Part shown: positions 6,353 through 59,471 of the stretch, piece after piece
Position numbering within the stretch: position 1 is the stretch's first letter
How the letters are laid out: each line of letters starts with the position of its first letter
Assembly: GCF_000002515.2 (NCBI RefSeq)
Contig: NC_006040.1
Span: 434,001-498,000, forward strand
Reading direction: 5' to 3'
Source of the DNA: Kluyveromyces lactis
Taxonomy: Eukaryota; Ascomycota; Saccharomycetes; Saccharomycetales; Saccharomycetaceae
DNA: 64,000 bases
Position numbers and translations under genes: made by a program
Notes under the pieces: model-generated
Seen by the model: only the letters and a program-made list of their open reading frames with translations
What the model was told of the DNA's origin: nothing
The model's database searches: none

Positions 6353-6880
6353 GTATGTTACCTATATCGTGGGCTGAATGATACGTGTGTGAGAAAGATC
6401 AAATGAGATAAGGATAGAATTGCAATTAATAGGAAACCAACAGAAACCTAAGCCTGAGGACCCAGAATGAATTGTATCTCCTGAATGGAAATCCGATGAT
6501 CTATTACAGAGAGCGAAGCGACATGGAGGGGAGAGAGAGGCTAATTAAATTTACAGACAATACTTCTTCGGAGCCAGTATGAATATCAAAAAGATGATAA
6601 TTCAACCTAGACAATGGAAGGGAAAGTGAGATAAATAACGGCCCATGAGCTTTAGTATCGGACCATCCTACAGTCCATGTTAGCATATGAGGATGGTCTG
6701 ATTTTCCACGATTATAAAGAAATGGAAAGATTTAGACAATACAACTTAACTTATCACTCTCACATACGAGGATTATTATTCGAATATTAATTTACTAACA
6801 TAAATTGTTATGATAATAATTTGTAAACGCACACTGTTGTCGTTGTACCAGATTATTATACATTGAATAAACTTTTACAG
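6353..6880 (+). other. RPS26: Probable 5' UTR intron of RPS26
   Basis: A perfect 5' splice site GTATGT at 6353-6358, a perfect branch site TACTAAC at 6793-6799 and a 3' splice site TTTTACAG ending at 6880 are in order. The branch adenosine is 82 nt from the 3' end, and the start codon follows one base after the acceptor. The 528-nt interval contains no competing gene. All three signals match consensus, but RNA data would be needed to prove use. Confidence 0.65.
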
Positions 6881-6881
6881 A

Positions 6882-7241
6882 ATGCCAAAGAAGAGAGCTT
6901 CCAACGGTAGAAACAAGAAGGGTAGAGGTCACGTCAAGCCTGTCAGATGTGTCAACTGTTCCAGATCTGTTCCAAAGGACAAGGCCATCAAGAGAATGGC
7001 TATCAGAAACATCGTTGAAGCTGCTGCTATCAGAGATTTGTCTGAAGCCTCTGTCTACGCTGAATATGCTCTTCCAAAGACCTACAACAAGTTGCACTAC
7101 TGTATTTCTTGCGCTATCCACGCTAGAATTGTTAGAGTCAGATCCAGAACTGACAGAAGAATCAGAGCTCCTCCACAAAGACCAAGATTCAACAGAGACA
7201 ACAAGGTTTCTCCAGCTGATGCCGCTAAGAAAGCTTTGTAA
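6882..7241 (+). CDS. RPS26: 40S ribosomal protein eS26
   Basis: This 119-residue basic protein matches eukaryotic eS26, which binds the 3' end of 18S rRNA at the mRNA exit channel of the small subunit. It shows [10 protein letters not shown] at the N-terminus and the zinc-binding cysteines in R-C-V-N-C and Y-C-I-S-C. Codon use is strongly biased, as in highly expressed yeast genes. In S. cerevisiae, RPS26A (YGL189C) is close to COX4 and TPN1, and the same order holds here. A leader intron ending one base before the ATG and a consensus Rap1 site farther upstream fit standard ribosomal protein gene control. Confidence 0.97.
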
Positions 7242-7826
7242 ATCTAACCTTAAACAATAGCAAGTCATTTAAATGAAGATATGAATTTATCTTTTTATTA
7301 TCATCAAAATGTATTCTTTTCTCTATGTTTAATGTTTAGATCTGTATAGTTTTATATCAATAACTAAAACGCACCCAAATAACTTCAAGAAAGTCAGTTT
7401 TAGCCTTAGTTGTGCTTGTTAGGATGCAGTATGCACTAGACCATCTGAGACCAATCTTTATTAGAAGAGCACCTAAAGCCATTTGGTTAAGCGGTGCCTT
7501 TGCTGGTCAATGGTAACGAGAATATCATAATACACGATTTGATCTGTTCAATTTTTCATGTATTACTGAAAATTGTTTTAAAGAGTAATTACGATCTCGA
7601 ATGATGCTAAACCATGTGTTAACTTTCAATATAAGGTTACGTTCGTTTTATCCTTTTAAAATTAGAATCCACTGATCATTAATTGGCTGTCGTTATTTAA
7701 CGGTTTCAGGCGACATATTTCCTACCAGATATATCCATTTTCAGCGTACTTTTATCTTCTTTTTGCTGGGGCATTTTATAGAAAATTCAGCTATTATTGT
7801 TAACTTTGTGATTCCTGATTAACAAC
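7242..7826. other. Intergenic between RPS26 and FRS1
   Basis: AT-rich apart from a 30-codon ORF at 7424-7516, listed separately. Relative to S. cerevisiae this is a synteny breakpoint: chromosome VII-type genes lie to the left and the YLR060/YFL034 block to the right. Confidence 0.5.
7424..7516 (+). CDS. Small ORF of 30 codons, unknown
   Basis: ATG at 7424 opens a 30-residue frame ending in F-A-G-Q-W-stop. It has an arginine-rich centre (I-R-R-A-P-K) followed by a mildly hydrophobic stretch, which resembles tiny mitochondrial membrane proteins in a general way only. I recognise no family. The surrounding DNA is AT-rich, whereas this stretch has more protein-like codons. It may be chance. Confidence 0.2.
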   Translation: MQYALDHLRPIFIRRAPKAIWLSGAFAGQW

Positions 7827-54020: not shown

Positions 54021-54683
54021 ATGGCTAGAAGACCAGCTAGATGTTACAGATACCAAAAGAACAAGCCTTACCCAAAGTCTAGATACAACAGAGCTGTTCC
54101 AGACTCTAAGATCAGAATTTATGATTTGGGTAAGAAGAAGGCCACTGTCGATGAATTCCCATTGTGTGTCCACTTAGTTTCCAATGAATTGGAACAATTG
54201 TCTTCTGAAGCTTTGGAAGCTGCTCGTATTACTGCTAACAAGTACATCACCAAGATGACTGGTAGAGATTCTTTCCACTTAAGAGTCAGAGTCCACCCAT
54301 TCCACGTTTTGAGAATCAACAAGATGTTGTCTTGTGCCGGTGCCGATAGATTGCAACAAGGTATGAGAGGTGCTTGGGGTAAGCCTCACGGTTTGGCTGC
54401 CAGAGTTGCCATTGGTCAAGTTATCTTCTCTGTCAGAACCAAGGACAACAACAAGGACACTGTCATTGAAGGTTTGAGAAGAGCTAGATACAAGTTCCCA
54501 GGTCAACAAAAGATCATTATCTCTAAGAAGTGGGGTTTCACTTCTTTGAACCGTGAAGAATACGTTAAGAAGAGAGACGCTGGTGAAATTAAGGACGATG
54601 GTGCTTTTGTCAAGTTCTTGTCCAAGAAGGGTTCTTTGGAAGAAAACATCAGAGAATTCCCAGAATACTTCGCTAAGGCTTAA
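54021..54683 (+). CDS. RPL10: 60S ribosomal protein uL16
   Basis: A 220-residue protein (S. cerevisiae Rpl10 221) that starts [10 protein letters not shown]. It contains the conserved loop region with [15 protein letters not shown] next to the tRNA/A-site, and the C-terminal extension. It joins the 60S subunit late in the cytoplasm, where it triggers Nmd3 release. Codon use is extremely biased. KAT1 converges from the right at 226 nt. No coding intron. Confidence 0.98.
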
Positions 54684-54908: not shown

Positions 54909-57772
54909 CTAGGATTCTGTTTTACGTACAAATAATATTTGATCCAATGATGTACTTTTCAAGTCGAATTTATGGTAATTTCCAAGTGCCATATATGCAA
55001 TCTTAGCCTTCATCCTTTTTTCTAAACTTGTAGGTGAGATTCTTCCTCTCCCTTTACTTGTAAGGATCGACGATATGCTGAAGATATGTTCGATATGAGT
55101 CGATGAAACAGCAATGCTGTCCATTAGGTGATTGAAAAGTGAAAGGATGGGGCAGTTTTTGATATCAGCCCAAATCTTGTGATGAACGTCCCGCATAGTC
55201 AATAAGAGATATTCATATTCACTTAGTTTGGTTCCATTAGAAAGTTTGAACATACCAATAGTCTCTTCATAAACGGTACCGTTACAATTCATATGATCTT
55301 CAGTATACTGAACGTGCATTTTATTGTATTGGCCATTGAAGCTTTGGACTTCTTTTAGAACCATTGAATAGAAAATGTACCGGAAATGTGATTCATCTAT
55401 CCTTTGGTCATCGATGGTTTCACTGCCATCATCAAATACAATACTCATAATACCAGGTATACGTGGCTGAGATGTTGTGTCCATCCCGTTTTTCACTTGA
55501 ATATTTAACATGGGAAATAAGATATCTGTAACAGCGTCACTGACACATCTTGACAAAAGCTCGTTATTCTTTTTATTGTTGCCCTTTTCGTACTGAAGGT
55601 TTAGTTTTTGCATGAGGTATGGCAAATTTCTGTACCCACAATTGAAATAACTAGCAACTACCAATAATCGTTCTTTCTCATAGGACTCAGTGTACTGTTC
55701 AATTTTACTCAAAAATCTCTCTATTTGAGTTAAAACCACAGTTATTCTGTCGTCATCCTTTGTAAAACCTAATTGTTTCCTATTAAGTTTGGCTTTCAAT
55801 TTGATAACATGTGGCACTACAGCGTCTTTATAACTGCTTAAGGCAGAAAGCAAATACCTCGATGTTGTCTCTGGACTATTGAAAAAAGCTGTTATCGTCT
55901 GAAATGGTTTCAAAAGAATAATATACACTCTGATGCATTCAAAGTCGAATTCATCAAGCAATGAACTTAACGATCCCTCTTTGATCAACTGTAGCAGACA
56001 TGGTGCCAATAGCGTTGCTCTTTCAAAACATAACACAGAATATGTCCATCTTGTTCTAACATAAGGAATTAGCCCATCAATGTCACCTAATCGTTTATCA
56101 GTACAGTATTTCTTAATGGCCTTTCGATTGACCGGCCTTCTGCATTCGATTTCCAACTTATTAATCGATTCTAGTAGTTTATGTGCTCCTGAGACCCTCG
56201 TATCCATTGAATCTGCTCCGAATATCTCGTTAAAAAATATATCATGGACGTCAGAGTAGTCAGGTAATGAAGCGTCATCATCATTCAAGTCAACTTCTTC
56301 TACTAACGTATCCCCTTCAATATCAGTATCAAGATCTAGATCACCAGCGTCAACCTTTGGGGTCATATTGACAAGTTTATTTTCTGGAACAAAAGTCGCA
56401 GTCTCGACGTCTGGAATTGGCCCCTGCAAAACCCCGACAGCGAACCATAATCAAGAATCTTGACTTTAAGTCTTTCTTCATGTTGTTTAATAACTTGTTG
56501 CTCAATTGATCTAGAACTGGGCTCGGTGACTAGCTTACTATGAACGACATTCAATGAATGATTAACACAGCTTAAATGAAGTAAGCGATCTGGGCACTGT
56601 GATGTCAAACCCAGACATGCATTTTTTACAGAACTAGCGTTATCTGCTGCAGATGAAATTATCATTTTATTGAGGCCTGGATAATGCTGGATGACTTGCT
56701 CGAGTTGATCTTTGATGGCAGCTGAAGAATGGTTCACAGTTTCAGGCATACCAATTACGAAACTTCTTTGCTTTTTTTGGTATTTATCCCAAATCACAAT
56801 AACAACACCAATAAAAGACCTTAACCTTGTGTCTGACCAATGATCTAAAACTAATGAAGCAAAATGAATATTCGATAACTCTTTCATTCGAGTAATACAT
56901 TTGTGCTCGAATTCTTGCTTATGATTTATTACCAGCGGTGTTGAAAAAACTGTATTGCCTTTCTTAAACTCCCTCGAAAGCAGGGTTTCGATATCGGCGA
57001 CATTGCCATCAAGCAATTTTTTCATATTGTTAGAGTTACAAGCAGGATGTTTTGAGTGAGGTTCTAATTCTTTCAGCTTTTTGGAAACTTCTATAACTGC
57101 CCTGTCATCAGCGAAGCACATCGGTTGATTCGTAGAATTCATCATGAACCAAATGTAATCATTTGGGGACATCTTCTTCAGATTTGGATTGTGGGACAAT
57201 GTTTCCGTGTTGACATGCTCGGGATCCTCCCAGTGACAGGGTCCGACATATACTTGATCCGGATTACAACCAACGGGGCACCTATAGTATTTTGATCCTG
57301 ATTGAGAGAGGTGCTTTTTCAATATTCTTACTGTGTTACCATTTTGATGCTTTTCCACTTTTAACACCATGGAGCATAGCATACATCTGTACAGATTATT
57401 ATCTGCATTCTCCTTGAAATAGCTCCAAACGGCTTGGACAGTACCTTTGTATGGTCTTGATTTGCAATGCAACCACTGCATTCCATTTACGCTACCCTTG
57501 TAGACTTTGACATTGGATAGGTTCCCAACCAACAAATCACGATCAAATGATTGTGGATGGCTGCAGCTACGGTTCACGTTTTCGAAATCTTCTTCATCCA
57601 GATACAATGACATGGCCTTGTCATGATCAATTTTTTGTAATTTTGTAGGTCTATCGCTAATGCTCTCTTTACCACAGTTATCTGCAACTTCTGAGACCGG
57701 ACTTAGCATTTGTCCAGAGTCATATACTCTCTTCTTTGAAGGTGTCAAATTATGTAAACTCGATGATATCAT
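54909..57772 (-). CDS. KAT1: Domesticated hAT transposase, KAT1-type, in two overlapping frames joined by -1 shift
   Basis: ORF1 (57772-56363, 469 aa) begins at an ATG and ORF2 (54909 to about 56450, read from the right) lies in the -1 frame. ORF1 holds a BED-like zinc finger (Cys130, Cys133, His154), the first catalytic Asp in L-V-L-D-H-W (Asp310), the second in S-A-A-D-N-A-S (Asp377) and C-V-N-H (402-405). ORF2 holds the hAT R-W motif (V-R-T-R-W) and, near its end, the Glu in I-E-H-I-F-S of the dimerisation domain. Only both frames together give the complete DDE enzyme, about 950 residues. This is the known organisation of K. lactis Kat1, whose translation needs a programmed -1 frameshift and which makes hairpin-capped breaks in MATa to start switching to MATalpha. 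Inserted between RPL10 and SEC53; no S. cerevisiae counterpart. An alternative is an ordinary decayed hAT gene, less likely given long intact frames. Confidence 0.88.
56363..56450 (-). other. KAT1: KAT1 frame-overlap window with candidate slip site
   Basis: The -1 frame opens after a TGA at 56453-56451 and ORF1 stops at 56365-56363, so the shift must fall in these 88 nt. At 56435-56428 the minus strand reads GGGG TTTT; in ORF1 phase it is tcG GGG TTT Tgc. A tRNA on GGG can re-pair with GGG after slipping back one base, but the A-site TTT would meet GTT, so this is not a perfect X-XXY-YYZ heptamer. ORF2 has no ATG in the overlap; its first is about 22 codons past the TTG at 56429. Confidence 0.6.
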
Positions 57773-58706
57773 TTATTCTGGCAGCGTCACAGACTTAGTA
57801 TTGAAAAAACCCTGTAAAATACAACAATTGATCGATAGGCTTGAGGTCTGAATCGATTACTCTATAAGTGTATTAATCGAATACATGATTGATCCGTTAC
57901 TAGGTTGCCGATGAGCGTCTACTTTATATTCTTTTCATCCAACGAACCTCAAAAAGTGACACTGTCGCAAGACGCGAAATGAAGTGACAGTAAGTAAAAC
58001 TTTACAGGTATGAGAAGTCCATAAATCTTTAGACAACGAATATCATGAACAAGATCAAGAACAGTACCTTGGCAGCGGCAGGCCTGTCGATTCTTATTTT
58101 TTTTCTGCCGTTAGTCCCATGTTTCTGATAATGAGGTTATGCACTTTTGGCGAGCCTAGTTTGAATAAAACCAAGTAAAATCGAAGTAGTGATGGCGTAA
58201 CCATGAAAAAAAAAGAGTCAATCGTGGACTATTGATCCACAGGTAACCAATCGGTCAACGAAACTGCTCGACTAAGTACCATTTCCATTCCCCATTTGGC
58301 AATTTGATTACTCTGAGCTCGCGGAATTACTGAAAACTCCATGAGCCGTTACCAACTACCACTTCATCATCCGAACTGGCACATACATATAGATAATCAC
58401 GCCTATATTGCATTGCAGTACATTGTCAAGATCCTTTGGCCGTTCTCTTCGTTTTCTTTACGTGATTTTTTTCACGTTTCTACATTCTTTACACGTAGTT
58501 CTAAATGAAAAATTGATGAAAAAAACCATTTCGTGGCATTTTATATTTAACACAGTTGACATCTAAAGAAACAAGAAAGCCAAATATTTCTTCCCACATC
58601 CTTTCATTGAAGTATCCTCTTCAAGTAACCATCTGTGATTAAACTTAATAGCTCCGTTTTACAGAGGTAAGATACAATATCTCCATCGATAAAAATAGAT
58701 CAAGAA
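57773..58706. other. Divergent promoter KAT1/SEC53
   Basis: About 930 nt with no gene. On the KAT1 side lies an Rme1/Mts1-type site (57944-57954) and a weaker one (57839-57849). I saw no long terminal inverted repeat flanking KAT1. Confidence 0.55.
57944..57954 (+). promoter_or_regulatory. Rme1/Mts1-type binding motif upstream of KAT1
   Basis: GAACCTCAAAA fits the S. cerevisiae Rme1 consensus GWACCTCAARA at all positions and lies 172 nt upstream of the KAT1 ATG. K. lactis Mts1 is the Rme1 ortholog and is reported to activate KAT1 on nutrient limitation. Binding at this exact site is inference. Confidence 0.55.
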
Positions 58707-59471
58707 ATGAGTGTTTCAGAGTTTTCGCATAAGGAACAGCCAACCACTTTGGTTTTGTTTGATGTTGATGGTACTTTGACTCCAGCCAGATTGACCGTCT
58801 CAGACGAGGTTAGAGACATCTTGAAGAGATTGAGAGAAAAAGTTGTTATTGGTTTCGTTGGTGGTAGTGATTTATCCAAACAGTTGGAACAGTTGGGATC
58901 TGATGTTTTGGATCAATTCGACTATGCCTTCTCTGAAAACGGGTTGACCGCTTACAGATTGGGTAAGGAACTAGCTTCTCAATCCTTTATCGAATGGATC
59001 GGTGAGGAAGAATACAACAAGTTGGCCAAATTCATCTTGCAATACTTGGCTTCCATCGATTTGCCAAAGAGAAGAGGTACTTTCTTGGAATTCAGAAACG
59101 GTATGATTAACGTTTCACCAATTGGTAGAAACGCTTCTACTGCTGAAAGAAACGAATTTGAACAATTTGATAAGGAACACCAAGTCAGAGCTAAGTTCGT
59201 CGAAGCTCTAAAGAAGGAATTCGCTCATTTGTCCTTGACCTTCTCAATCGGTGGTCAAATTTCATTTGACGTTTTCCCAACCGGTTGGGATAAGACTTAC
59301 TGTTTGAGACACGTCGAAGCCGACGGTTTCAAAGAAATCCACTTCTTCGGTGACAAGACTTACAAGGGTGGTAACGACTATGAAATCTACGTCGACGACA
59401 GAACTATCGGTCACTCTGTAGAATCTCCTGCTGACACTGTCAGAATCTTAAAGGAATTGTTTGATCTATGA
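58707..59471 (+). CDS. SEC53: Phosphomannomutase
   Basis: A 254-residue HAD-superfamily enzyme, the usual length for Sec53. The catalytic motif F-D-V-D-G-T-L-T places the nucleophile at Asp19 and the acid/base at Asp21. F-V-G-G-S-D-L and G-R-N-A-S (substrate loop) follow, and [14 protein letters not shown] holds the metal ligands. It converts mannose-6-P to mannose-1-P for GDP-mannose, hence N- and O-glycosylation and GPI anchors. Codon bias is high. S. cerevisiae SEC53 (YFL045C) lies next to FMP32 (YFL046W), as here. Confidence 0.98.

Follow-up and report, generated by a model that had tools for sequence, protein, structure and literature searches.

Kluyveromyces lactis KAT1, a single-copy hAT-type transposase gene kept as two overlapping frames in a -1 relation

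The gene described here is KAT1 of Kluyveromyces lactis, frameshift included, and it is already known. Almost certainly, a minor -1 ribosomal slip in the overlap between its two reading frames yields a 954-aa nuclease that cuts MATa for mating-type switching. KAT1 can then be seen as a transposase that its host has kept to serve as a mating-type nuclease and that is rationed by ribosomal frameshifting, and it should be annotated as one gene and not as a pseudogene. The programmed -1 frameshift is not a new claim, since PMC4763223 (2016) and the review PMC5499181 both state it, citing a 2014 PNAS paper. The split in relatives, the private residue G908 and the assignment of D377, which we describe below, are refinements of this known gene and mechanism.

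Reading frames, catalytic residues and identity

We analyzed a 64-kb window, the whole stretch C4:434001-498000 of a 10,729,447-base genome in 7 contigs. KAT1 lies on its minus strand and has the following parts, in window coordinates; residue numbers are those of the joined frames, "in register" refers to the published Kat1 numbering, and P0001 to P0008 are proteins found by searching with the two frames.

56363-57772, minus strand: KAT1 ORF1, the zero frame, 469 aa from its ATG, carrying the BED finger, D310, D377 and CXXH
57311-57433, minus strand: BED zinc finger with C130 and C133, both in register; limits approximate
56843-56845, minus strand: D310, the first catalytic aspartate, in register
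56642-56644, minus strand: D377, the probable second catalytic aspartate, in a DNASS motif ahead of CXXH
56558-56569, minus strand: CXXH motif, C402-H405, in register
56363-56450, minus strand: overlap of ORF1 and ORF2, 88 nt, within which a -1 ribosomal slip must fall
56428-56436, minus strand: candidate slip site C GGG GTT TT, zero-frame codons TCG GGG TTT, with GGG at 56434
54909-56450, minus strand: KAT1 ORF2, the -1 frame, 513 codons stop to stop and 485 aa from the ATG at 56366, with the R-W motif, E895 and the hAT C-terminal region; its relatives are P0002-P0005
56046-56048, minus strand: W576 of the R-W motif, in register
55089-55091, minus strand: E895, the catalytic glutamate, in register
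55050-55052, minus strand: G908 (codon GGG), Arg in P0001-P0004 (4/4; P0005 ends earlier)

A sequence-only reading of this stretch had described two long, overlapping minus-strand frames in a -1 relation, with the DDE aspartates in the first frame and the glutamate and R-W motif in the second. Our analysis confirmed this layout: ORF2 opens at an offset of 1322 from the ORF1 ATG, which is phase 2, or -1, and the catalytic residues are divided between the frames as described. The length of 469 codons given for the first frame also stood, but the second frame, put at about 506 codons, has either the 513 or the 485 listed above, depending on whether it is counted from stop to stop or from its ATG. 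The two frames are open beyond chance: when these 2,864 bp were simulated 500 times with a first-order Markov model and read in the three frames of a single strand, the longest stretch without a stop averaged 87 codons and never exceeded 178.

We then compared the phases with a codon-preference model trained on 26 ORFs of the window. Before the overlap, phase 0 leads with 0.024 bits per codon, the other two phases scoring -0.153 and -0.126; phase 2 leads both within the overlap (0.299 against -0.43 and -0.306) and after it (0.106 against -0.198 and -0.12). The score of ORF1 is low, -0.002 over the whole ORF, compared to 0.02-0.51 for the 26 reference ORFs, which were scored by the model that they had trained. 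Across the last 150-nt windows of ORF1, with starts at 56632-56482, phase 0 scores below zero (-0.06 to -0.28) and another phase outscores it, although the other phases contain stops there.

Joining ORF1 and ORF2 at the GGG at 56434 gives a protein of 954 aa with a calculated mass of 108.97 kDa. PMC4763223 gives the mass of Kat1 as 109 kDa and places the end of the protein at residue 958, as opposed to 954 here. Among 21 residues named in the mutational study of Kat1 in that paper, 19 are in register across the joined frames: C130, C133, D310, W312, W328, C402, H405, W576, Y578, F624, W868, S886, E895, F898, S899, S906, K907, R909 and R911. The two that are out of register are D328, where the window has W328 followed by D329, and R908, where it has G908. 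Since both D328 and W328 are named in PMC4763223, one of the two published 328 labels must be off. We considered whether the misfitting residues point to another gene and rejected this, since the other 19 agree and P0001 does have Arg at 908. According to PMC4763223, the D310A and E895A mutants are both inactive.

The likeness to K. lactis Kat1 thus takes in the residue register, the mass, the -1 frameshift and a target with GTATAC ends and six TGAATT repeats in the same genome. We base the identity of the gene as K. lactis KAT1 on the register, on its single copy and on the presence of the published target in the same genome. The sequence-only reading had proposed K. lactis Kat1, the domesticated transposase of mating-type switching, and the 19 of 21 residues in register bear it out.

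The published label D328 does not fit the sequence, and the second catalytic aspartate is probably D377. Conservation cannot choose between D329 and D377, since both are equally conserved in the available rows (4/4 for D329 and 3/3 for D377, P0008 ending earlier). In the hAT/DUF659 order, the second aspartate comes after strand four of the RNase H fold, ahead of CXXH. D377 is preferred over D329 for this reason.

The order of motifs in Kat1, with a putative BED finger, D...D, CXXH, R-W and E, is that of Hermes and other hAT transposases such as Ac, hobo and Tam3; yeast Rover (PMC9897184) is a further hAT element. For the Hermes equivalences of individual Kat1 residues we relied on PMC4763223. 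Membership in the hAT superfamily would rest on this motif order and the published Hermes comparison, since no profile reaches significance with the window protein: the DUF659, BED and dimerization scores all lie below cut-off. In Pfam, DUF659 matched residues 282-415 of the window ORF1 with an E value of 0.0099 and P0007 with 1.1e-06, both below cut-off. We scanned six of the eight relatives as well, leaving out P0001 and P0006. The BED profile PF02892 matched P0008 (E 0.0014, 19.1 bits against a cut-off of 20.6), and the window protein and P0007 were unmatched; PF05699, the hAT dimerization profile, matched P0002 (E 0.03) and P0003 (E 0.021) below cut-off and was unmatched in the window ORF2, P0004 and the short P0005. 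A search of the PDB by sequence with ORF2, ORF1 and the alignments A2 and A1 found no hAT structure (best E 2, 7 or no match). Unlike Hermes and other hAT transposases, KAT1 was found in one copy, is without flanking GTATAC ends and is split by a -1 shift.

The slip site and other ways of joining the frames

The slip would most likely take place at C GGG GTT TT (56436-56428), with the GGG at 56434 as the slip codon, through slippage of the P-site tRNA-Gly. Among 30 zero-frame codons examined across the overlap, this GGG is the only one that allows 3/3 re-pairing in the P site after a back-slip of one base; in the A site, TTT would meet GTT. No X XXY YYZ heptamer was found in the zero frame, and GGGTTTT (56434) and CCCAAAG are present in other phases. 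Downstream of the slip run, no nested RNA fold went beyond shuffled sequence in nine windows (z -0.54 to 0.65, nested folds only), and a search of Rfam around the junction (56100-56700) returned no match up to an E value of 1.

We propose that most ribosomes would stop at the end of ORF1 and release a product of 469 aa that has the BED finger, the first two catalytic aspartates and CXXH and lacks the catalytic glutamate. This unshifted protein is presumably the major product. A minority of ribosomes would slip back one base in the overlap and continue into ORF2, producing the 954-aa hAT-type nuclease. Between MATa1 and MATa2 lies a fossil element, and full-length Kat1 cuts at both of its GTATAC ends, leaving hairpin-capped breaks; repair from HMLalpha then completes the switch from a to alpha. 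The cutting by Kat1, the hairpins, a programmed frameshift that limits expression and control by Mts1 have been published (PMC4763223).

Could the two frames be expressed as two polypeptides instead? Here ORF1 would end at its TGA, translation would restart at the overlapping ATG (ATGA, 56366), and the products, Kat1-N and Kat1-C, would assemble in trans. The ORF1 stop does overlap the first ATG of ORF2 (ATGA, 56363-56368), but this is weak evidence of a restart signal, since a TGA stop becomes ATGA whenever an A happens to stand before it. Each of P0001-P0005 likewise has a Met start at or within ~40 residues of the opening of its frame. Given that PMC4763223 reports programmed frameshifting and an active full-length protein after a one-base correction, we consider two polypeptides improbable.

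An even smaller chance goes to a joining of the frames in RNA, either through splicing of an intron or through an extra G that polymerase slippage adds at GGGG. A run of four G's is short for polymerase slippage. Between 56000 and 56900 there are only weak splice-like words, GTA[AT]G at 56751 and 56538 and NCTGAC at 56264 and 56255, but no GTATGT, GTANGT, NACTAAC or TRACTRAY. The corrected allele is named KAT1+G in PMC4763223, which is compatible with an added G. Least probable of all is a decaying pseudogene with an accidental frameshift, which would account for two frames with no single ORF and for the low codon score of ORF1, but relatives have long open frames at 57-75% (ORF2) and 52-61% (ORF1) identity, random substitution to those identities left 0/200 simulations stop-free at each of six settings (substitutions only, the relatives being open by ascertainment), and both biochemistry and switching are published (PMC4763223).

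Relatives of the two halves and the sequenced allele

The sequence-only reading had advised searching for relatives of both frames. In addition to the K. lactis proteins, this returned four ORF2 clusters and a near-complete ORF1 relative, P0007, and these too are separate proteins. With ORF2 as the query, five proteins were found, P0001-P0005, after scoring the 8,000 candidates that shared most words. P0001 is 99% identical to the window ORF2 and starts at the same ATG. The others are stand-alone C-terminal halves of 385-506 aa, with identities in the alignment of 75% (P0002), 72% (P0003), 57% (P0004) and 60% (P0005), and their divergence suggests that they represent four lineages. P0005 is a short protein (385 aa, longest contig 2,214), and its end differs from those of the others.

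With ORF1 as the query, three proteins were found among 3,323 candidates, P0006-P0008. P0006 (469 aa, 14 members, 11 contigs) is 99% identical to the window and differs from it at three residues. It too stops where the window ORF1 does, which makes an error of this assembly an unlikely cause of the break. P0007 has 484 aa and is 52% identical to ORF1; P0008 has 297 aa, is cut short and is 61% identical. The longest contig is 66,632 bases for both P0004 and P0007, and from this shared figure they are probably the two halves of one gene. P0007 has LSGF at the slip site, with 6/9 residues identical at positions 440-448 and then 4/18 at 449-469; its similarity to ORF1 drops ahead of the slip site, from 81/120 at 301-420 to 11/26 at 421-446.

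A full-length query returned no relative of 525-1670 aa from the 8,000 scored candidates that shared most words, and no ORF1 half to go with P0002 (longest contig 131,023) or P0003 (4,986) turned up among the 3,323 candidates. The protein search returns open frames only and would miss broken relatives. No relative came to light when viral_contigs was scanned with ORF2 (28 stretches) and genome_contigs with ORF1 (5 stretches). As far as these proteins go, the results suggest that relatives keep KAT1 split too. A split kept by relatives makes its origin testable: frameshifting may have arrived with the transposon or may have been acquired as regulation. KAT1 has been described as specific to Kluyveromyces (PMC5499181, PMC6692504). 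In K. marxianus, an orthologous Kat1 is reported that was found by BLASTp against predicted ORFs, and its inactivation together with that of ALPHA3 stabilizes mating type (PMC6156195).

The window differs from the K. lactis proteins P0006 and P0001 at six residues. G908 may reflect either allelic variation between strains or a mistake in sequencing. F276 (L in 3/3 others) and H411 (N in 2/2) are also private to the window. At 279 it is the other K. lactis protein that deviates, at 772 that protein has M and the rest have I or V, and 661 is variable. PMC4763223 reports that a KRRR-AAAA quadruple mutant, in which 908 is among four residues changed together, is inactive. G908 is a warning that the reference KAT1 allele may behave unlike the allele studied at the bench.

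In IS1 (InsA/InsB') and the IS3 family (OrfA/OrfAB), a -1 frameshift in the transposase gives a long enzyme in addition to a short, N-terminal product that binds DNA. It is conceivable, though doubtful, that the split of KAT1 is old in the genus and has been kept by selection as a two-product device, resembling InsA/InsAB' of IS1. The unshifted ORF1 protein, which has the DNA-binding finger and lacks the catalytic glutamate, would then be a standing inhibitor of cutting at the MATa ends, and the cutting would be left to the rare shifted protein. The same tentative proposal holds that the allele of the sequenced strain is weakened (G908 and the private F276 and H411), so that variation in KAT1 could underlie the classical allele-specific determinants of homothallism reportedly described by Herman and Roman in 1966. 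Unlike IS1 and IS3, KAT1 is eukaryotic and domesticated and is without an A-rich slippery run, and repression by its short product is putative. A built-in inhibitor would be compatible with the finding that the first 200 residues bind DNA more strongly than full-length Kat1 (PMC4763223).

Copy number, target locus and neighborhood

One copy of KAT1 was found in the genome, both by DNA search and with each frame separately, rather than the many near-identical copies that the sequence-only reading had named as grounds for rejecting it. Near the gene, GTATAC occurs only within ORF2, at 55303 and 55457. Among the 25 listed of 36 short pairs of inverted repeats in the 4 kb around KAT1, none has GTATAC ends, and the listed pairs that run from flank to flank are short, for example, 15 nt at 80%. 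KAT1 is present as a domesticated transposase would be, in a single copy without flanking terminal repeats.

We next turn to the target. Forward GTATAC...GTATAC pairs with 370-400 bases between them number 16 in the genome, compared to 11 in a backward-read control. TGAATT was counted in both orientations in 15 of the 16 pairs, the sixteenth being left out. Two pairs, C2:1279566-1279951 and C3:280813-281198, contain six TGAATT repeats each; among the remaining 13, two pairs contain two repeats and eleven lack them. The two six-repeat loci are identical over 1373 + 386 + 1245 bp (flank, core and flank). They fit MATa and HMRa and the published target, for which PMC4763223 also counts six repeats. 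In locus L006, a homeodomain ORF adjoins the target (E 3.7e-15), and for the ORF at the opposite end of the target (2035-2871), Pfam brought no meaningful support for a2. The genome that carries KAT1 also has what is expected of a Kat1 target: a GTATAC pair with a spacing of ~385 bp and TGAATT repeats, adjacent to a1.

Two motifs lie upstream of the KAT1 ATG:

57944-57954, plus strand: Rme1/Mts1-like motif that matches GNACCTCAARA as no other site in the 64-kb window does, ~170 bp upstream of the ATG
57840-57847, minus strand: second, weaker Rme1/Mts1-like motif, ACCTCAAG, ~70 bp upstream of the ATG

We take GNACCTCAARA to be the Rme1 consensus. As motif matches, the two are consistent with the control of KAT1 by Mts1/Rme1 that has been published (PMC4763223, PMC5720833).

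KAT1 is flanked by a ribosomal L16p/L10e gene (54021-54683) and a phosphomannomutase gene (58707-59471). Elsewhere in the window, a 119-aa plus-strand ORF (6882-7241) that by eye resembles a small-subunit ribosomal protein lies inside an antisense open frame (6795-7268, minus strand).
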